Source: Pseudomonas putida
GTDB lineage: Bacteria; Pseudomonadota; Gammaproteobacteria; Pseudomonadales; Pseudomonadaceae
Direction of reading: 5' to 3'
Length of the DNA stretch: 64,000 nt
Assembly: GCF_009883635.2 (NCBI RefSeq)
Contig: NZ_CP026115.2
Coordinates: 5,580,001 to 5,644,000 of the forward strand
How positions within the stretch are numbered: the stretch's first letter is position 1; each line of letters starts with the position of its first letter. The translations under genes were made by a program, and so were the position numbers. Under the pieces are notes generated by a model. It was not told where the DNA came from. It saw only the letters and a list, made by a program, of their open reading frames with translations, and searched no databases. Shown here in pieces: positions 9,855-18,469 of this stretch.

Positions 9855-11183
9855 TCAACTTACCCGAGCAGTACTCAACGCCCCAGCCCGGGTAACCCGC
9901 AAGGCCACCAGGCTACCCAGCACAATCAGCGCGGCCAGCGAATACAGCGCAGCATCGGTAGACCCAGTCTGGTCCTTGATGAACCCGACCAGATACGGGC
10001 TGAGGAAACCAGCCATCTGCCCCACCGAGTTGATGATCGCCAGGCCCGCCACTGCGGCACTGGCGCTGAGCAGCGCGGTCGGCATCGGCCAGAACATCGG
10101 CAGGCCGGTGAGGGCGCCCATGGTGGCGATCGACAGGCCGAGGATGGCGATGGTCGGATTGCCGGCGAAGTTGACCGCGATCAGCAGGCCGACGGCGCCC
10201 ATCAACATCGGCACTACGAGGTGCCAGCGCCGTTCGTTGCGCAGGTCTGCCGAGCGGCCGCAGAGGATCATGAACACCCCAGCCAGCAGGTACGGAATGG
10301 CGCTCAGCCAGCCGATCAGCAGCGGGTTGTCGAAGCCCATGTTCTTGATGATCGACGGCAGCCAGAAGTTGATCGCGTACACACCGCTCTGGATGCAGAA
10401 GTAGACGAAACCGAAGGTCCAGATCAGCGGGTTGGTCAATACAGCCATCACGCTGTCGCCGGTAGCGTTCGGTTTGCTGGCGGCGTCGGCCTTGAGGTCG
10501 GCGGCGATCAGCTGGCGTTCGGCGGGGCTCAGCCAGTCGGCTTTCTGGTAACCATCGCTGAGTAGCTTGATGGCCAGTACACCGAGGGCGACGGTTGGCA
10601 GGCCCTGGATCAGGAACATCCACTGCCAGCCGGCCAGGCCATGTTGGCCAGCGGCGAAGTGCTGCAGGATCCAGCCGGAGAACGGCCCGCCGAGCAGGCC
10701 CGACACCGGGATCGCCGACATGAACAAGGCCATGATGCGGCCACGGCGGTCAGCCGGGAACCAGCGCGAGAGGTACAGCACCACGCCGGGGAAGAAACCT
10801 GCCTCGGCGGCGCCGGTCAGCAGGCGCAGGGTGTAGAACTCGGTGGGGGTGGTGACGAACAGCAGGCAGGTCGACAGGCTGCCCCAGGCGATCATCATCG
10901 CCGCAATCCAGCGCCGCGGGCCGAAGCGGTTGAGCGCCAGGTTGCTCGGCAGGCCACAGAGCACGTAGCCGATGAAGAAGATGCCGGCGCCGAGGCCGTA
11001 CACGGTTTCGCTGAACTTCAGTGCATCGAGCATCTGCAGCTTGGCGAAGCCGACGTTGACGCGGTCCAGGTAGTTGAACAGGTAGCAGATGAAAATGAAC
11101 GGGATCAGCCGCAGGGTGATGCGCCGGTACAGCGCGTTGCGGGTGATGTCCGTGCCTTGGTCAGGGGCGGGGCTGTGTGCCAT
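9855..11183 (-). CDS. MFS transporter, anion:cation symporter family (probable glucarate/galactarate or glycerate uptake)
   Basis: 442 residues from the ATG at 11183; the reading frame continues upstream but without transporter-like sequence. Twelve membrane helices are evident. LIPFIFICYLFNYLDRVNVGFAK in helix 1 is the typical signature of the ACS family that imports organic anions such as glucarate, galactarate, phthalate and tartrate. The gene diverges from cdaR, which is followed by glycerate 2-kinase, so a sugar diacid or D-glycerate is the likely substrate. The 163-bp shared promoter region would allow CdaR to control both directions. Confidence 0.88.
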   Translation of the reverse strand: MAHSPAPDQGTDITRNALYRRITLRLIPFIFICYLFNYLDRVNVGFAKLQMLDALKFSETVYGLGAGIFFIGYVLCGLPSNLALNRFGPRRWIAAMMIAWGSLSTCLLFVTTPTEFYTLRLLTGAAEAGFFPGVVLYLSRWFPADRRGRIMALFMSAIPVSGLLGGPFSGWILQHFAAGQHGLAGWQWMFLIQGLPTVALGVLAIKLLSDGYQKADWLSPAERQLIAADLKADAASKPNATGDSVMAVLTNPLIWTFGFVYFCIQSGVYAINFWLPSIIKNMGFDNPLLIGWLSAIPYLLAGVFMILCGRSADLRNERRWHLVVPMLMGAVGLLIAVNFAGNPTIAILGLSIATMGALTGLPMFWPMPTALLSASAAVAGLAIINSVGQMAGFLSPYLVGFIKDQTGSTDAALYSLAALIVLGSLVALRVTRAGALSTARVS

Positions 11184-11273
11184 GATCGTGGTCTCTGTTG
11201 TTATGGTTGTCGCCGCGTCGCCTGTGCCGGCGCTCGCCCTGACGAGTCTCGGGGACGGCGGCGCGCCTGTCTT

Positions 11274-11287
11274 TGTGCTTTTGCACA
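11274..11287. promoter_or_regulatory. Candidate operator in the MFS/cdaR divergent promoter
   Basis: TGTGC-TTTT-GCACA is a short perfect palindrome in the middle of the region between the two divergent starts (11183 and 11347). CdaR is the obvious candidate regulator, but I do not know its binding consensus, so this is only a positional suggestion. Confidence 0.3.
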
Positions 11288-11346
11288 GCGTATCGCGGAT
11301 GGCGCTGTGCCGCCGTACAAAAGCTGACACGATTAAGGACCGCTGA

Positions 11347-12444
11347 ATGTTCGAACTGGACCATGACCTGGCGCAGGATATCGTCAATCGGGCGATGGCC
11401 ATTCTGCCCTGCAACGTCAACGTCATGGACAGCCAGGGGCTGATCCTCGGCAGTGGCGAGCCGGAGCGCATCAACACCCGTCACGAGGGTGCGCAGCTGG
11501 TGTTGGCCAATGGCCGGGTGGTCGAACTGGACGTCGACGCGGCCAAGTGCCTGAAGGGCGTGCAGCCTGGGGTCAACCTGCCGTTGATGCTCGACGGGCG
11601 CTTGATCGGCGTGCTCGGCCTGACCGGCGAGCCGCAGCAACTGCGCACCTACGGCGAGCTGGTGCGCATGACCGCCGAGATGCTCCTGGCGCAGCGCCAT
11701 CTGCAGGTCGAGCAGCAGTGGCGGCGCCAGCGTTGCGACGACCTGCTGGCGCTGCTGCTCGGCGGCAGCGGCGATTCGCCACGGTTGCTGGACGAGGCCC
11801 AGCAGTTGGGCCTGAAGCCTCAGTTGCCACGGGTGCCATGCCTGTTCGAGCTGCAATCCGGGCCGCCTGCCGAAACGCTGTCGGCCTGGTTGATGAGCCG
11901 CTACCCGGAAAGCTGGTGCGTGAGCCCTTCGCGCGAGTCGCTGCTGTGGTGCCGGCCGGCGGGGCTGGTGCTGGATGAAGCACGCCTGATCGAGCGCCTG
12001 CGGCGCCACGGCTGGGAGGTGGAACGCCTGGCCCTGGGCAGCGCGGCGCAGAGCCTGGAACAGCTGCGCCGGGGTTACCGGCGGGTACGTGACTTGCTGG
12101 CCTATGGCCGTGAGGTGCTGCCGAAGGAACAGCTGCTGAGCCTCAGCCGCTACCGCTTGCCGGCCTTGCTCTGGCGCCATCGCAATGAAGACGCGCTGGA
12201 TGAACTGCTTGAGCCGTTGCAACGCCTTCGCGCCCGGGATGCCAGCGGCCAGTTGCTGACCACGCTGCGCGCCTGGTGCGCGCACGATGGCCAGAGCCAG
12301 GCCTGTGCCGATGCCCTGGGTATCCACCGCAACAGCCTGCGTTACCGCCTGGAGCGTATCGCCGAACTGGGCGAAGTAGACCCGTTGCGCCTGGAAGGCA
12401 TGCTGAGCCTGTACCTGGGGCTGCAACTGCTGCCGGCCGATTGA
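11347..12444 (+). CDS. cdaR: CdaR-type sugar diacid-responsive transcriptional activator
   Basis: 365 residues. Residues 1-130 form the sugar-diacid recognition domain (MFELDHDLAQDIVNRAMAIL opening; INTRHEGAQLVLANGR). The C-terminus (about 300-360) is a PucR/CdaR helix-turn-helix with ADALGIHRNSLRYRLERI. In E. coli CdaR senses glucarate/galactarate/glycerate and activates their uptake and breakdown genes. Here it is flanked by a divergent MFS transporter and a downstream glycerate 2-kinase, exactly its expected targets. AAGGA lies ten bases before the ATG. Confidence 0.92.
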   Translation: MFELDHDLAQDIVNRAMAILPCNVNVMDSQGLILGSGEPERINTRHEGAQLVLANGRVVELDVDAAKCLKGVQPGVNLPLMLDGRLIGVLGLTGEPQQLRTYGELVRMTAEMLLAQRHLQVEQQWRRQRCDDLLALLLGGSGDSPRLLDEAQQLGLKPQLPRVPCLFELQSGPPAETLSAWLMSRYPESWCVSPSRESLLWCRPAGLVLDEARLIERLRRHGWEVERLALGSAAQSLEQLRRGYRRVRDLLAYGREVLPKEQLLSLSRYRLPALLWRHRNEDALDELLEPLQRLRARDASGQLLTTLRAWCAHDGQSQACADALGIHRNSLRYRLERIAELGEVDPLRLEGMLSLYLGLQLLPAD

Positions 12445-12556
12445 GCGCCGCCGAAGGCATTTGCCCAAACAACGCCATCGGCCTTTTGTGCATCCGACTG
12501 AGGCCGCCGCGCCAGACAGCTGTCAGCATGCCTGTTATCAGGACAGGAGAATCCCC

Positions 12557-13699
12557 ATGAAAATCGTCATCGCCCCCGACTCGTTCAAGGACAGCCTCGA
12601 CGCTGCCGGTGTCGCCCGTGCCATCGCCCTTGGCCTGGGCGAGGCGTTGCCCGCTGCCGAGCTGGTCGAATGCCCGATGGCCGATGGCGGCGAAGGCACC
12701 ATGGAGGCGATTGTCGCTGCCAGCCATGGCGAACTGCGCCGGCAGACCGTGCGCGGGCCGCTGGGGCAGCGCGTGGAAGCCGGTTGGGGCTGGCTGGCAG
12801 AAAGCCGCACTGCGGTCATCGAGATGGCCCAGGCCAGCGGCATCCAGCTGGTACCCAGCGGCCAGCGCGATGCCTGCCGCAGCAGCACCTGGGGCACTGG
12901 TGAGCTGATCGCCGCAGCCCTGGCGGCCGGGGCGCAACGGATCGTCCTGGCCATTGGCGGCAGCGCCACCAACGATGGCGGCAGCGGCATGCTGCGGTCG
13001 CTGGGCCTGCGCCTGCTGGATGCCGACGGGCAAGCGCTGGAGGAGGGTGGCCTTGCCCTGGCCCGGCTGGCCCGTATCGACGCCAGTGACCTGGACCCAC
13101 GGCTGGCCGAGGTGCAGGTCGACGTGGCGGCCGATGTCGACAACCCGCTGTGTGGCGCCAATGGCGCTTCGGCGATCTTCGGCCCACAGAAGGGCGCCAA
13201 CCCCGAGCAGGTGCAGGCGCTGGACCAGGCCCTGGGCCACTTTGCCGACCACTGTGCGCAACTGCTCGGTGAAGACGTGCGCGACTTCCCGGGTTGCGGT
13301 GCGGCCGGGGGCATGGGCTTTGCCGCCAAGGCCTTCATGGGCGCACGCTTCCGCCCGGGGGTGGAAGTGGTCGCGGAGCTGGCTGGCCTGGACGCGCTGG
13401 TGCAAGGCGCCGACCTGGTGATTACCGGTGAAGGGCGCTTCGACGCCCAGACCCTGCGCGGCAAGACGCCCATGGGTGTCGCCCGGGTGGCTAAGCGTCA
13501 CGGGGTGCCGGTGGTGGTGCTGGCGGGTACCCTGGGCGAAGGCTACCAGCAGCTGTATGCCCACGGTATCGACGCGGCCTTTGCCCTGTCCAATGGGCCG
13601 ATGACCCTGGAGCAGGCGTGCGCGAACGCCGCGCAGCTATTGCAGGACCGTGCCGGTGATATCGCCCGTGTCTGGCAACGCGCCAGGCAGCAGCGCTGA
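12557..13699 (+). CDS. garK: Glycerate 2-kinase (GarK/GlxK family)
   Basis: 380 residues from the ATG at 12557, which has ACAGGAGA upstream; the 32 codons before it lack family similarity. MKIVIAPDSFKDSL is the family's N-terminal signature, and MADGGEGT, LAIGGSATNDGG and ITGEGRFDAQT are conserved nucleotide/substrate loops. The enzyme phosphorylates D-glycerate to 2-phosphoglycerate, linking glucarate/galactarate or glyoxylate breakdown to glycolysis. It lies 112 bases after cdaR. Its last 63 bases overlap the 3' end of the opposing LysR gene, an unusually long tail-to-tail overlap. Confidence 0.92.
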   Translation: MKIVIAPDSFKDSLDAAGVARAIALGLGEALPAAELVECPMADGGEGTMEAIVAASHGELRRQTVRGPLGQRVEAGWGWLAESRTAVIEMAQASGIQLVPSGQRDACRSSTWGTGELIAAALAAGAQRIVLAIGGSATNDGGSGMLRSLGLRLLDADGQALEEGGLALARLARIDASDLDPRLAEVQVDVAADVDNPLCGANGASAIFGPQKGANPEQVQALDQALGHFADHCAQLLGEDVRDFPGCGAAGGMGFAAKAFMGARFRPGVEVVAELAGLDALVQGADLVITGEGRFDAQTLRGKTPMGVARVAKRHGVPVVVLAGTLGEGYQQLYAHGIDAAFALSNGPMTLEQACANAAQLLQDRAGDIARVWQRARQQR

Positions 13700-14653
13700 T
13701 ACGTCGCAATCCTCCTGCATCAGCGGCTTCTGCAGGGTATCGGCAAAGCGCTGCGGCGCGCCCTGCTGGAGCATGGCAATGAAGCTGCCCAGCGCCGGCG
13801 AGGCGTTCTCGGTATTCCAGTTCATGTACAGGCCCATGCTCGGCGTGGGCTGGCCCTTGATCGGCCGGATCGGGCGGAACTGCACGCGGTCGCCCAAGGC
13901 CGAGTAGGCAATCGATTCCGGTACCAGGGCGACACCGAAACCGCAGGCCACCAGCCCGACCTGGGTGTGGATCTGCGCGGCCTCCTGGACGATCCTGGGG
14001 TGGAAGCCTGCCGACTCGCACAGGGCGATTAGCTGGCCGTGATAGCCGCTGCCCAGCGCCTGCGGGGTGAAGACGAAATCCTCATCGGCAAAATTGCGCA
14101 GGTCGACCACGGGCTGCCGCGCTTCGGGATGGTGAGCGGGCAAGGCCATGACGATCTGCTCGCTGAGCATCAGGCGTGATTCGAGGGTGCCTGCCGGCAG
14201 CGGCAGCTTGCGCATGAAGCCGACGTCCGCTTCCCCGGCCAGCAACGCCTTGGCCTGGGAGGCCGAAGGCATTTCGCGGATGGTCAGGCGCACGTTCGGG
14301 TAGGTTTCGCGAAATTGCTTCAAGGTGGTGAGCAGCGACGCGTAGTAGGCGATGGAAATAGCGGTGATGGTCAATTTGCCGCTGATGCCTTGGGAGACAT
14401 TACGCGCGTATTCGATGCCTTGCTCCAGTTCCTTGAGCGTGCGGTAGGCTGTTTCCAGGAAGGCCACGCCAGCAGTGGTGAGCTTGACCGCCCGTTTGTT
14501 GCGCAGGAACAGGCTGAACCCCAGTTTTTCTTCGAGGCGGCTGATCGCCTGGCTCAGGGGCGGCTGGGCCATGTGCAGGCGCAGGGCCGCCTTGTGAAAG
14601 TGCAGCTCCTCGGCGACGGCAATGAACTGCCTGAGCAAGCGTGTCTCGATCAT
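13637..14653 (-). CDS. LysR-family transcriptional regulator, divergent from the SDR/SMP-30 fusion
   Basis: 338 residues from the ATG at 14653 with GGAAGAGGGA upstream; an in-frame ATG 51 bases earlier is possible but has no LysR similarity. The helix-turn-helix (16-40, LHFHKAALRLHMAQPPLSQ) is of the CatR/BenM-like group that responds to aromatic or sugar acids. The effector domain spans about 90-300; the last 35 residues extend beyond the usual end and are coded across the 3' end of garK. A near-ideal palindromic LysR site lies 32 bases upstream of its start, so autoregulation and control of the divergent fusion gene are expected. Confidence 0.9.
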   Translation of the reverse strand: MIETRLLRQFIAVAEELHFHKAALRLHMAQPPLSQAISRLEEKLGFSLFLRNKRAVKLTTAGVAFLETAYRTLKELEQGIEYARNVSQGISGKLTITAISIAYYASLLTTLKQFRETYPNVRLTIREMPSASQAKALLAGEADVGFMRKLPLPAGTLESRLMLSEQIVMALPAHHPEARQPVVDLRNFADEDFVFTPQALGSGYHGQLIALCESAGFHPRIVQEAAQIHTQVGLVACGFGVALVPESIAYSALGDRVQFRPIRPIKGQPTPSMGLYMNWNTENASPALGSFIAMLQQGAPQRFADTLQKPLMQEDCDVSALLPGALPDTGDITGTVLQ

Positions 14654-14684: not shown

Positions 14685-14703
14685 TGATATCCCGGAGATA
14701 TCA
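14685..14703. promoter_or_regulatory. Palindromic LysR-type operator
   Basis: TGATATC-CCGGA-GATATCA: seven-base perfect arms with a five-base centre. It includes the T-N11-A form expected for LysR regulators (ATATC..GATAT) and lies between the divergent LysR gene (start 14653) and the fusion gene (start 14780). Confidence 0.75.
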
Positions 14704-14779
14704 AAGTTGCATGCTTTTAATATTAAGTCATTGATTTTTTTGTTGTTATCGTAAAAAGGAGAATTGGAAGGGCTCTACA

Positions 14780-16504
14780 ATGCCATTTACAGACCCATTC
14801 ACGGGCAAGGTCGCCATCGTCACCGGTGCTGCCCAGGGCCTTGGCCTGGACTACGCCATGGCACTTGCAGCCCGTGGCGCCCGGGTCGTCATCAGCGACC
14901 TGGGCACCGACCGGTCAGGTGAAGGGCAGGACCCGACGGCCGTCAGCGCTGCGTTCGAAACCCTGCGCGCCAGGGGTTTCGACGTGGTCGCACACATCGG
15001 CCAGCTGGAACATGAAGACGCCTGCCGGCAACTGGTCGAGCTGGCCGTCGAACACTTCGGCGCACTGGACATCCTCATCCACAACGCGGGCTGGGTGGAC
15101 TACCAGGGCATCGAGACCCAGGAACAGGCCTTCCTCGACCGCGCCCTGGGCATCAGCGTGCACGCGCCGGTGTGGCTGGCCAAGCATGCCTGGAAGCACC
15201 TGAAGCGATCAGCGGCACCGCGCATCGTGCTGACCACTTCCGACCGTGCCATGTACCAGCGTTACGCGCAGCCGGGGCTGGTGGCCTATGCGGCGGGCAA
15301 GATGGCCCAGGTCGGCATCATGAACGCCCTGAGCATGGAAGGGCAGGAGCACGGCATTCTGGTCAATGCGATCTCGCCCGTGGCCAAGACCCGCATGTGG
15401 GGTATCAGCCAGGCACCGCAAGAGCTCAAGCCGGAGTGGGTCACCCCGGGTGTGCTGTACCTGGCCAGCGGGCTGTGCCACGACACCGGCTATATCCTGA
15501 GGGCCAGCAACGGCCAGTTCACCGCCACGCGCCTGTGCGAGAACAGCGGGGTCAGCTACCCGCGCGACCTGGCACGGGTGGAGGCTGCCAGCCTGGCCGA
15601 AGTCGCGGCGCGCTGGAGCCGCATCAAGGAATGCCACTACCAGCCGGTCAAGGTTGCCAATACCCGTGCCGACCTGGGTGAAAGCCCGGTCTGGGATGCG
15701 CGGACGGGGGCGTTGTACTTCGTCGATATCACCGGCGGGCGTATCAACCGGCTGCAGCCCGATGGCAAGCTGGAGCGGTTGTATGAGTCGGCCGCACGTA
15801 TTGGCGCACTGGCGCTGACCGACCGCGGCAACCTGATCTTCACCGAAGACTCCAGCGCGGTGCTGCTCGACCTTGCCTGCGGCCGCATTCGCCAGTACTC
15901 GGTACCCGTGCATCCGCGCTCGACCTATCGTTTCAACGATGGCGCCTGTGACCCACAGGGGCGCTTCGTCACCGGCCTGATGGACGAAGTCCCGAGTGGC
16001 GGGACCGGGGCGCTGTTCCGCTTCGACGGCCAGTTCAGTGACGAGGTGATCCATTGCGGCCTGGCGTTGCCCAATGGCTTGGCCTGGTCAGCCGACGGCC
16101 AGACGCTGTTCTTCGTCGACTCCGTGGCACGCAGGATCTACCGCGCCGAATACCCCGCAGAAGGGCGCCTGGAGCAGGTCAGCCTGTTCGCCGAGACGCC
16201 TGCCGAACTGGGGCGGCCGGACGGCATTGCGCTGGACCGTGAGGGTGGGCTGTGGGTCTGCCAGTTCAATGGCAGCTGCCTGCTGCATTACGACCGTCAT
16301 GGCCACCTGACCGATCAGGTGGTGATGCCGGTACCGCGCCCGACCAGTTGCTGCTTTGGCGGCGAGAACCTGGATACCTTGTACATCACCACCGCACGGG
16401 TCGGCATGGCACCGGCGCAATTGCGCCATTACCCGGATGCGGGCGATCTTTACGCGATCCGCCCGGAGGTGGCTGGCATCGCACGGTATGCCTTCAAGGA
16501 ATGA
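14780..16504 (+). CDS. Fusion of short-chain dehydrogenase and SMP-30/gluconolactonase-type lactonase
   Basis: 574 residues in two domains. Residues 1-255 are a short-chain dehydrogenase: cofactor motif TGAAQGLG (15-22), HNAG (101-104), catalytic S154, Y170 and K174 (YAAGK). Its sequence is closest in style to the MFE-2/HSD17B4-like branch (ARGARVVISDLG; ELKPEWVTPGVLYLAS). Residues 290-574 are an SMP-30/gluconolactonase beta-propeller with all usual metal ligands: E301 (GESPVWD), N386 (RFNDG), N432 (PNGLAWS) and D481 (PDGIALD). The pair could oxidise a sugar or other cyclic alcohol to a lactone and hydrolyse it in one polypeptide. A LysR gene diverges from it; AAGGAG and GGAAGGG lie upstream of the ATG. 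Substrate unknown. Confidence 0.9.
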   Translation: MPFTDPFTGKVAIVTGAAQGLGLDYAMALAARGARVVISDLGTDRSGEGQDPTAVSAAFETLRARGFDVVAHIGQLEHEDACRQLVELAVEHFGALDILIHNAGWVDYQGIETQEQAFLDRALGISVHAPVWLAKHAWKHLKRSAAPRIVLTTSDRAMYQRYAQPGLVAYAAGKMAQVGIMNALSMEGQEHGILVNAISPVAKTRMWGISQAPQELKPEWVTPGVLYLASGLCHDTGYILRASNGQFTATRLCENSGVSYPRDLARVEAASLAEVAARWSRIKECHYQPVKVANTRADLGESPVWDARTGALYFVDITGGRINRLQPDGKLERLYESAARIGALALTDRGNLIFTEDSSAVLLDLACGRIRQYSVPVHPRSTYRFNDGACDPQGRFVTGLMDEVPSGGTGALFRFDGQFSDEVIHCGLALPNGLAWSADGQTLFFVDSVARRIYRAEYPAEGRLEQVSLFAETPAELGRPDGIALDREGGLWVCQFNGSCLLHYDRHGHLTDQVVMPVPRPTSCCFGGENLDTLYITTARVGMAPAQLRHYPDAGDLYAIRPEVAGIARYAFKE

Positions 16505-17444
16505 GCACCTGCCCCTGACTGGCCGGTAGCACGGCCAGCTCGCCGAAGCGTTGCGCGGCGTCGATATAGCGCAATGCTGACTTGGCGTCTTTCCAGCCCA
16601 CGTAGCTCATCAGGGCTTTCAACTCCCAGCCATTGGCCGTTGCCCAGGTGGCAAAGCCGCGGCGCAGGGAATGGCCGGTGTACAGCGCGGCGGGTACCTC
16701 GGCACGTGCCAGCATGCGCCGTAGCAGGCCGACCAGGCTGTTGCTGTTGAGCGGCGTATCGCTGAGGTTGCCCCAGCGGTCGAGCTTGCGAAATACCGGG
16801 CCGTGGGCGATGCCCGCCACCTCGATCCATTGCAGGTAGGCATTGACCGGGCACAGCGTCTTCAGTGCCGGGGTGCGGTGCTGCACGCCCAGCGCTTCGC
16901 GGTCGCCCTTGCTGCGCGGCAGGAACAGGGTGATGCCCACGCCCGCTTCGGCCTGGATGTGCTCCACGCGCAAGCGCGCCAGTTCATCACCGCGAAAGCC
17001 GCGCCAGAAGCCCAGCAACAGCAAGGCGGTGTCACGCCGGGCGCGGCGCAGGGCTGGCAGGTCGTGGCATTCACGGGCCTGGGTGGCTTCGGCTTCGAAG
17101 CGCTCGACGGCTGCCTGCAGGTGTTGCAGTAACAGCGGGGCGGCTTGCCTGGGGGGTGTCGGGTGCAGGGTGCGGATGCCGCGCAGCACCTGGCGCACCA
17201 GCGGCGCCTTGGTCGGGTCGGGGAAGCCCTGGCTGATGTGCCACTGGCTGAGTGCTGCCAGACGCTGGCGCAGGGTGCTGACCGCGTGCTGTTCGGCGTG
17301 GTCGGCCAGGTAGCGGGCGATGCTGTCGGCGGTGGCCGGCAGGAACCCGCCCCAATGGGTCTCGAAGTGTTCGATGGCGGCTTGGTAGCTGCGCCGGGTG
17401 TTGTCGCGGGTGGCAGCGCGGACGTAGCGCTCGATGTCGGTCAT
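16494..17444 (-). CDS. Orphan tyrosine recombinase (site-specific integrase)
   Basis: 316 residues from the ATG at 17444; the frame upstream crosses the REP pair and is not coding. Residues 1-95 are a SAM-like core-binding domain (NTRRSYQAAIEHFETHW) and 105-316 the catalytic domain. Catalytic residues: R151 (FRGDEL), K179, H258 and R261 (HSLRRGF), W284 in place of the second histidine, and nucleophile Y293 (LRYID). Replacement of that histidine by tryptophan is seen in active family members such as Flp and Cre. No phage, integron or att-site features surround it. Its stop overlaps the 3' end of the convergent fusion gene by 11 bases. Confidence 0.88.
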   Translation of the reverse strand: MTDIERYVRAATRDNTRRSYQAAIEHFETHWGGFLPATADSIARYLADHAEQHAVSTLRQRLAALSQWHISQGFPDPTKAPLVRQVLRGIRTLHPTPPRQAAPLLLQHLQAAVERFEAEATQARECHDLPALRRARRDTALLLLGFWRGFRGDELARLRVEHIQAEAGVGITLFLPRSKGDREALGVQHRTPALKTLCPVNAYLQWIEVAGIAHGPVFRKLDRWGNLSDTPLNSNSLVGLLRRMLARAEVPAALYTGHSLRRGFATWATANGWELKALMSYVGWKDAKSALRYIDAAQRFGELAVLPASQGQVLIP

Positions 17445-17499
17445 GGCTGGCAGGTTGGTGGGAGACCGTGACACGATAAAGCTTATTGGTCCGCCTGTC

Positions 17500-17579
17500 C
17501 CGGCCTCTTCGCGGCAAAAGCCGCTCCCACAGGCCCTGCGCAACCCCTGTAGGAGCGGCTTTAGCCGCGAAGAGGCCGG
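17500..17579. repeat. Pair of inverted P. putida REP elements
   Basis: Two 34-bp copies in opposite orientation, 17500-17533 (CCGGCCTCTTCGCGGC...) and 17546-17579 (...GCCGCGAAGAGGCCGG), 12 bases apart. They match the abundant REP sequence of P. putida chromosomes, each with its own small palindrome. They lie between the start of the integrase gene and the 3' end of the binding-protein gene. Confidence 0.92.
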
Positions 17580-17596
17580 CACAGGATGCGCGTAAA

Positions 17597-18469
17597 TCAG
17601 CGAGGCAACGAGGCGTCCATCAATTGCCGCAGCGGCGCATATTCGGCCTGGCTCACCGGCACCAGCCCGCTGGCATCCTGAGAGGCGACAAAGGCCGCCA
17701 TGGCCTTGGGGTCGTCCAGCATGGCCGTGCGAATGCGTTGCTTCAGCGCCGGGCACAGGCTGGCACTGAACACATAAGGGTCGTAGTAGATCGGCTGCGA
17801 GCGCCATTGCACCTTGAGTGCAGCCGGGCTCAGGGCATGCCGGGCGAGGTAGGCATCGGCCCGCTCGCTGGCGACGAAGGCGGCATCGACCCGACCATCG
17901 AGCAACGCTTCCAGCGCCTTGTCGTGGGTCCCGGCATACACCAGCGCGCCGAAGAATTGCGGTAACGGCGAGCCGACTTCGGCCGGGAACTCGACACTCG
18001 GCACCAGGCTGCCCGAGGTGCTGGCCGGGTCGCTCAGGGCCACACGCTTGCCGCGCAGTTGCTCGATGTTTTCGACGCTGTTGCCACGGGTCAGCAGCAG
18101 TGCCTGGTAATGGCTGCCGGCCGGCGTGTAAGGGCCAGCGCTCAAGGTGAAGGTCGCGAACGGTTCGATGCCGGGGTCGCGTCGGTTGGCCAATACATAA
18201 GATGCTGGGCCAAGCCGGGCGATGTCCGCGCCGCCGGAGACGATGGCGTCAACCACGCTTTCGTAGGAGGCGGCAATCACCAGTTCTACCGGCACACCCG
18301 CTGCCTGGCTCAGGCGCTGCAGCAGCGGCTGGTGTTCGCGAACCATGTCCTCGCTGCTCTTGATCGGGATCACCGCCAGGCGCAGGCTGCGCGGCGTGCA
18401 ATCGGCCACGGCGGCAGAGGCCAACAGATTGGCCAGCAACAGCGCGGCCAGGGTCTTCACAACACGCAT
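17597..18469 (-). CDS. PhnD-like periplasmic phosphate/phosphonate-type binding protein
   Basis: 290 residues with a signal peptide (1-22, ending ASAAVADC). LRLAVIPIKSSEDMVREHQPLLQRL, GADIARLGPASYVLA and GKRVALSDPASTSGSLVPSVE are standard blocks of the PhnD/SsuA2-like type 2 binding-protein fold. Such proteins normally feed an ABC importer, but no permease or ATPase gene is nearby. Instead its start overlaps the end of a GGDEF-EAL gene by 13 bases, so it is probably made together with that protein and serves as its periplasmic ligand sensor. GAGGAAAA precedes the ATG. Ligand unknown. Confidence 0.85.
   Translation of the reverse strand: MRVVKTLAALLLANLLASAAVADCTPRSLRLAVIPIKSSEDMVREHQPLLQRLSQAAGVPVELVIAASYESVVDAIVSGGADIARLGPASYVLANRRDPGIEPFATFTLSAGPYTPAGSHYQALLLTRGNSVENIEQLRGKRVALSDPASTSGSLVPSVEFPAEVGSPLPQFFGALVYAGTHDKALEALLDGRVDAAFVASERADAYLARHALSPAALKVQWRSQPIYYDPYVFSASLCPALKQRIRTAMLDDPKAMAAFVASQDASGLVPVSQAEYAPLRQLMDASLPR

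Follow-up and report, generated by a model that had tools for sequence, protein, structure and literature searches.

Does a bacterial gene that joins a dehydrogenase to a lactonase encode one working two-step enzyme, or two neighbouring genes that were merely merged? The question is raised by an open reading frame at positions 14780–16504 of the window, by which we mean the whole 64,000-nucleotide stretch of Pseudomonas putida DNA analysed here (contig NZ_CP026115.2, positions 5,580,001–5,644,000). We compared this gene, the divergent LysR-family gene beside it and the sequence between them with related loci (L numbers) and genomes (G numbers). The sequence comparisons support a real fusion under a LysR switch of its own, one that is genuine, selectively maintained and apparently functional. 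We consider it an evenly balanced matter whether the product is a bifunctional enzyme, fused once in a P. putida-type ancestor, in which a LysR-induced short-chain dehydrogenase/reductase (SDR) would convert a lactol to a lactone and an SGL lactonase would open the lactone to an acid.

One reading frame encodes a dehydrogenase and a lactonase domain

14780–16504, forward strand: fused SDR-SGL gene, 574 amino acids (open reading frame and Pfam)
14798–15634, forward strand: SDR half, residues 7–285 (Pfam, residue check, PDB alignment)
15239–15241, 15287–15289 and 15299–15301, forward strand: SDR residues S154, Y170 and K174
15635–15652, forward strand: junction, residues 286–291 (comparison with split relatives)
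15653–16501, forward strand: SGL lactonase half, residues 292–574 (Pfam, residue check, regucalcin alignment)
15680–15682, 15935–15937, 16073–16075 and 16220–16222, forward strand: SGL residues E301, N386, N432 and D481

The open reading frame runs for 574 codons with no internal stop. In a Pfam scan of the window proteins (five families at E ≤ 0.001), its product matched adh_short at residues 10–206 (E = 1.1e-31) and SGL at residues 299–540 (E = 6.4e-79), with scores far above the curated cut-offs in both cases (for SGL, 265.5 bits against a cut-off of 26.3). The original prediction described a single polypeptide made of an MFE-2-like dehydrogenase and an SMP-30 lactonase with their catalytic residues kept. 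This description is borne out by the intact frame, by both Pfam domains and by the nearest PDB relatives of the SDR half, which are MFE-2 proteins; S154, Y170, K174, E301, N386, N432 and D481 are all present at the positions named. The predicted product is thus a single intact polypeptide containing the SDR triad and the SGL ligand residues.

The SDR half has the features of a classical SDR, namely TGAAQGLG starting at residue 15 (the TGxxxGxG cofactor motif), NAG at residues 102–104 and the S154/Y170/K174 triad. The catalytic serine and tyrosine occur in all 47 SDR rows aligned, and the lysine in 45. In SDRs generally, a preference for NAD+ goes with an acidic residue closing the second strand; the presence of D40 (in ISDLG) at this place suggests that NAD+ would be used over NADP+. 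The best PDB relatives are (3R)-hydroxyacyl-CoA dehydrogenase/17beta-HSD4 proteins, that is, peroxisomal MFE-2 (2et6, 1gz6 and 3oml). MFE-2 is itself an SDR with a second enzyme, a hydratase-2 domain, behind it. The window protein differs in that Pfam finds an SGL lactonase and no hydratase after the SDR, and in a 3-residue insertion between the catalytic Ser and Tyr relative to the MFE-2 structures.

Among solved proteins, the SGL half is closest to regucalcin/SMP-30 (3g4e) and to the Smp-30/Cgr1 family protein 7plb, which, unlike the window protein, are stand-alone chains of ∼290–300 residues. When aligned with human regucalcin, E301, R384, N386, N432 and D481 all fall on identical residues, which we take to be its metal and substrate ligands. 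R384 is conserved in 36 of 36 SGL rows and N386 in 39 of 39. Both the Pfam SGL score and the matching E, N, N and D ligand positions place this half in the SMP-30/SGL family.

Distribution and origin of the fusion

A scan limited to one genome per species, and able to detect close relatives only, yielded 28 loci: 14 fused genes, nine split pairs, one SDR without an SGL match (L036) and four distant SDRs of 25–30% identity. The split pairs, each consisting of two adjacent genes, belong to Stutzerimonas, Alcaligenes, Erwinia, Bordetella, Klebsiella, Citrobacter, Enterobacter, Cedecea and P. brenneri. Within the genus, 75 of 398 sampled genomes matched at E ≤ 1e-75, giving 15 full-length fused genes (including that of the window's own genome), five SGL-only loci and 55 SDR matches; at least six of these 55 genomes also had an SGL row, with few candidates scored per genome. 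Combined, there are 29 fused loci including the window, representing 22 distinct DNA sequences, none with a stop. Hosts identified by name include P. plecoglossicida, which taxonomy assigns to the P. putida group, as well as P. putida HAI-2, P. taiwanensis, P. capeferrum, P. reidholzensis, P. ceruminis and P. faucium; the fused clade consists mostly of P. putida-group Pseudomonas. Outside this clade, the SDR and SGL that were found are encoded by two adjacent genes, or the SDR occurs without SGL. The original prediction had proposed that the fusion would be discredited if close homologues were always two separate genes, which is the case only outside the fused clade.

Broader searches gave no further fusion. 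With query P0001 at E ≤ 1e-60, 7 of 398 phylum genomes and 4 of 145 order genomes matched, none of them fused except the window's own genome. When 249 phylum genomes were searched with PF08450 and a purpose-built SDR profile was applied to 20 fetched long frames, a subset of the frames of such length, none of the 20, among the matches listed, contained an in-frame SDR; two of the stretches (L100 and L107) do hold an SDR match, though on a different strand or in a different frame. Pfam found SGL only in all eight of the long frames submitted to it. Six phage records matched, and the five of them listed gave half matches of 32–33% identity. Of 72 plasmid records, none exceeded 60% identity and six covered most of the query; among three of these six that we inspected, two are annotated as two genes and one, unannotated, has two overlapping reading frames. 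One fused gene, at 84% identity, comes from a record titled Pantoea sp. Ap-967 (L021) and lies deep in the Pseudomonas clade, reflecting either a mislabelled Pseudomonas or a transfer.

The 22 fused rows cluster together (support 99/98) in a tree of 47 SDR rows, requiring one change, and one side of a branch in the SGL tree unites fused and SDR-deleted rows, weakly (66/100). These trees indicate that the fusion arose once. Split loci share the SDR-SGL order and an adjacent LysR gene, and their two genes abut or overlap: in the nine split loci of the per-species scan, the closest SGL ATG lies within the SDR end, with an overlap of 8 bases (five loci) or 11 bases (one), or comes 1 base (two) or 2 bases (one) after it, and the annotated overlap in the Pseudosulfitobacter and Erwinia persicina pairs is 4 bases. 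The split loci displayed have a common SDR tail, W..I(K/R)E, and an SGL start, LGES.VWD, whereas in the fused genes displayed IKEC runs straight into (H/N)Y.P.KVA. At the junction, the split relatives have 13–14 extra bases, holding the SDR stop and the SGL start, that the fused genes lack.

The median ratio of nonsynonymous to synonymous substitution rates (dN/dS) among fused sequences was 0.122 for the SDR half, 0.108 for the junction (residues 279–298) and 0.142 for the SGL half, as computed from 210 pairs of 21 sequences (19 distinct), with L026, L027 and L054 (aligned from residue 4–5 on) and the repeats L045–L049 set aside. Both halves and the junction are therefore under purifying selection.

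A LysR gene and a conserved operator

13637–14653, reverse strand: divergent LysR-family regulator (Pfam HTH_1 and LysR_substrate)
14685–14703, no strand assigned: operator-like palindrome TGATATC-N5-GATATCA, wider form TGATA-N9-TATCA
14710–14752, forward strand: conserved non-coding block CATGCTTTTAATATTAAGTCATTGATTTTTTTGTTGTTATCGT (alignment of 22 distinct fused loci)

The start of the LysR gene was set at the ATG at 14653; the mechanical reading frame opens at an in-frame TTG at 14704. Its product scores 247.2 bits, below the cut-off of 430, with the NCBIfam model of the acetoin regulator AlsR (NF045775). In all 23 non-fused loci chosen, a LysR homologue (37–74% identity) adjoins the SDR; some of these loci represent the same place twice (e.g. 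L038/L088). In L012, L013, L062, L063 and L067 no LysR gene was seen in the fetched stretch, ∼1.5 kb on each side.

The divergent LysR gene and the palindrome had both been noted in the original prediction, and both are present. The sequence TGATATCCCGGAGATATCA at 14685–14703 has 0 mismatches to the palindrome and is the only match in the window at ≤2 mismatches (chance mean 0.04); elsewhere in the same genome there is no further site at <2 mismatches, and there are six at two. The palindrome holds T-N11-A, presumably a motif of the LysR-box type. Its core, GATATC-N5-GATATC, occurs once each in 30 of 116 fetched loci, comprising 27 of 29 fused and three of five SDR-deleted loci, and the other two fused loci (identical DNA) have the core with one mismatch. 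Of the 116 loci, 53 contain a single copy of the wider form, TGATA-N9-TATCA: all 29 fused loci, three of five SDR-deleted loci and 21 others, some of them the same place twice. These others include solo and paired Pseudomonas loci, distant gammaproteobacterial SDR loci (L081, 9465–9483; L084, 9856–9874) and alphaproteobacterial pairs (L077, 2768–2786; L079, 11896–11914), with the site between LysR and SDR at the positions given. The wider form was absent from the divergent loci L036/L070, L078 and L086 and from the co-directional loci of the per-species scan except L029, where it precedes the LysR gene. It is an unusually well kept LysR site, whether or not SGL is present, and reaches as far as the alphaproteobacteria.

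Since LysR adjoins the SDR in all 23 chosen non-fused loci and the operator recurs without SGL, the LysR-SDR pair with its operator is the old core of the system and SGL a frequent third member. When the 22 distinct fused loci were aligned, the palindrome arms and the block at 14710–14752 were near-invariant; variation was found in the spacer and on the side towards LysR. This block is a probable activation site and promoter; a scan for the sigma-70 consensus gave no match, and the RNA fold of the palindrome was unremarkable (z = -1.35). The suggestion of an inducible pathway of its own fared only partly well: the LysR gene and the conserved operator stand, but in a genome-neighbourhood comparison no gene beyond LysR recurred across distant loci.

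Loss of the dehydrogenase half

In five genus genomes (G057, G404, G108, G263 and G139) the start codon and ∼25–36 N-terminal residues are followed in frame by SGL, and the SDR body is gone. The deletion end points differ between L060 and three others aligned, L059 being outside that alignment. The SGL tree places L060 among fused rows, and a single SDR-deleted clade was obtained in 0% of 200 bootstrap trees; an approximately unbiased test did not reject one such clade, i.e. a single event (p = 0.215). We conclude that the SDR body was probably lost twice within the fused clade by in-frame deletion. The best SDR elsewhere in these five genomes has only 36–37% identity, so the SDR was not relocated. 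Three of the five loci retain LysR and the operator. At L009 and L059 neither was seen in the fetched stretch; the sequence upstream resembles the end of a glycerate kinase gene, and a larger stretch of G057 contains a kinase homologue.

In one sister clade, where the SDR half was lost too, the SGL ligand N432 is replaced by T (10 of 36 SGL rows: L009, L058–L061, L039, L052, L053, L055 and L056).

Proposed function and alternative explanations

The SDR-SGL domain order, the recurrent pairing and the catalytic residues fit a lactol-to-acid conversion; substrate, direction, cofactor and coupling are inferred. An older LysR-SDR-SGL cassette would have lost ∼13–14 bases across the adjoining stop and start codons, giving rise to the fusion once, in the ancestor of the P. 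putida-type clade. LysR with its inducer would activate the promoter of the fused gene. Using NAD+, the SDR half would then oxidise a small cyclic hemiacetal (a lactol, which may be a sugar or resemble one), and the SGL half, six residues on, would use a divalent metal to hydrolyse the resulting lactone, yielding a hydroxy acid of the aldonic type destined for general metabolism. Fusion would give equal amounts and proximity of the two halves, extending a coupling that began with gene overlap, and strict channelling would not be needed. That a cyclic substrate is oxidised and its lactone opened without release, as originally proposed, is plausible. That the locus is a self-contained, LysR-switched two-step converter of lactol to hydroxy acid, seen in every evolutionary state (as separate genes, as overlapping genes, after a single fusion and after one half was lost), is a possibility we hold tentatively and with some doubt. 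If it is true, the value of fusing consecutive enzymes could be measured directly in living relatives.

A number of observations weigh against the lactol-to-acid reading, or against tight coupling of its steps. At position 126, which we take to be the site where classical SDRs usually have a fourth catalytic residue, Asn, the window protein has Ser; across 44 SDR rows this position is N in 21, S in 19 and A in four, and Ser may still serve in place of the tetrad Asn. MFE-2 proteins, the nearest solved SDRs, take their names from acyl-CoA and steroid substrates and not from lactols. In the SGL half, Glu121 of regucalcin is not conserved, V404 standing at that place. Relatives have two genes at nine of the 28 loci of the per-species scan, and at 14 loci the SDR is present with no SGL match within the fetched stretch (L036 and L070, both of this kind, have identical SDR DNA). 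Among 13 SGL-less SDR genomes tested, five had no SGL match at E ≤ 1e-25 and eight had matches of 32–40% identity only. No SGL match was found in L081, L082, L084 and L085, the larger stretches around the distant SDRs L072, L073, L075 and L076, where LysR or nothing occupies the place of SGL. Since the SDR occurs without SGL, its product need not be a lactone. Conversely, SGL dN/dS was 0.10–0.15 among the SDR-deleted genomes and against fused sisters, compared with 0.08–0.11 among fused sisters, indicating that the lactonase remained under selection after SDR loss. Each half can do without the other, and the SDR losses argue against an obligatory coupling of the two steps.

These findings bear on three alternatives. 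A local frameshift, sequencing or assembly artefact joining two genes would agree with the two-gene state outside the fused clade, but this candidate was rejected, as 22 distinct stop-free fused sequences from many assemblies share a single origin; we regard it as wholly improbable. The halves could instead be co-regulated but uncoupled, each acting on a compound of its own or the two sharing one only loosely, with the fusion a near-neutral merger of overlapping genes that is hard to re-split. The persistence of SDR without SGL and of SGL without SDR is expected under such a scenario, as is the lack of conserved pathway genes seen, and PMC3148214 offers the same neutral view of fusions between glucose-6-phosphate dehydrogenase and 6-phosphogluconolactonase. 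What tells against it is that gamma-, beta- and alphaproteobacteria all have the SDR-SGL pair in one constant order, with a single LysR gene ahead of it or next to it, and that the fusion is intact, with a conserved junction, in 22 distinct sequences. We regard the uncoupled state as a serious contender, at somewhat below an even chance.

It is also conceivable that one half is turning non-catalytic, the protein being mainly a lactonase (or mainly a dehydrogenase) with a relic domain. The probable double deletion of the SDR body inside the fused clade, Ser at position 126 and the N432-to-T change in one sister clade all point in this direction. The window protein, by contrast, retains S154, Y170 and K174 together with the four SGL residues, and constraint on the SDR half is no weaker than on the SGL half, which makes a relic domain unlikely.

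Comparison with known systems

The original prediction knew of no characterised enzyme with an SDR-SMP-30 arrangement, and no paper on one was found in the literature searched, subscription papers being mostly outside its reach. Fusions of glucose-6-phosphate dehydrogenase with 6-phosphogluconolactonase (G6PD::6PGL) occur in Plasmodium, Giardia, Trichomonas and chordates, according to PMC3148214 and PMC10819308; these likewise join a lactone-making dehydrogenase to a lactone-opening lactonase, and the doubt between channelling and a neutral relic is already stated there (PMC3148214). The window fusion differs in being bacterial, in having its own LysR operator and in consisting, by Pfam, of adh_short and SGL, with neither a G6PD nor a 6PGL domain. 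A dehydrogenase-lactonase fusion is thus already known; here both domains are from other families. Deoxyribose/deoxyribonate oxidation in Pseudomonas simiae, as PMC6365646 describes it, combines an SDR, a lactonase and a glycerate kinase in one oxidative sugar pathway, but there the SDR works after the lactonase step.

The window gene represents a merger, of single origin, between adjacent enzyme genes, and every state survives in some living relative: the SDR without SGL, the two as a pair, the fusion and the fusion that has lost its SDR. Natural proteins thus allow a test of whether fusions help via proximity or merely persist. The comparison also draws attention to a putative dehydrogenase-lactonase step under LysR control that occurs in gamma-, beta- and alphaproteobacteria.

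Neighbouring genes

9855–13699: MFS transporter, CdaR-type regulator and glycerate kinase genes, adjoining the LysR gene
16494–17807, reverse strand: tyrosine recombinase gene (Pfam Phage_integrase and PHROG integrase)

A sugar-acid pathway inferred from the first group was dropped, as the CdaR-type regulator and kinase genes are common to just four of 15 fused loci (the window and 14 others); this block therefore seems to have been inserted or lost locally. The other 11 loci share a three-gene set instead, for which Pfam identified, in the copy at L038 (a locus that is not fused), an amidase, an asparagine synthase and one protein without a match. Since no conserved pathway neighbours were found, the product probably enters general metabolism, or the system detoxifies something. 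The recombinase gene points at the fused gene, and the last 11 bases of the fused gene lie within it. Pfam confirmed a recombinase at L028 as well as in the window, and 13 of the 15 fused loci that were compared have reverse-strand reading frames finishing at this position, a few of them much longer and possibly other genes.

Two plasmid loci show other contexts. On a small Pseudosulfitobacter plasmid (L077, 1853–7786), LysR-SDR-SGL lies beside a second LysR gene and an ilvD-type dehydratase gene, a one-off context that hints at sugar acids. On a Caballeronia plasmid (L080, 7249–10602), an epimerase-type dehydrogenase gene overlaps an SGL-type gene, which is followed by an MFS transporter gene; here SGL stands beside another type of dehydrogenase, in a parallel dehydrogenase-lactonase pairing.
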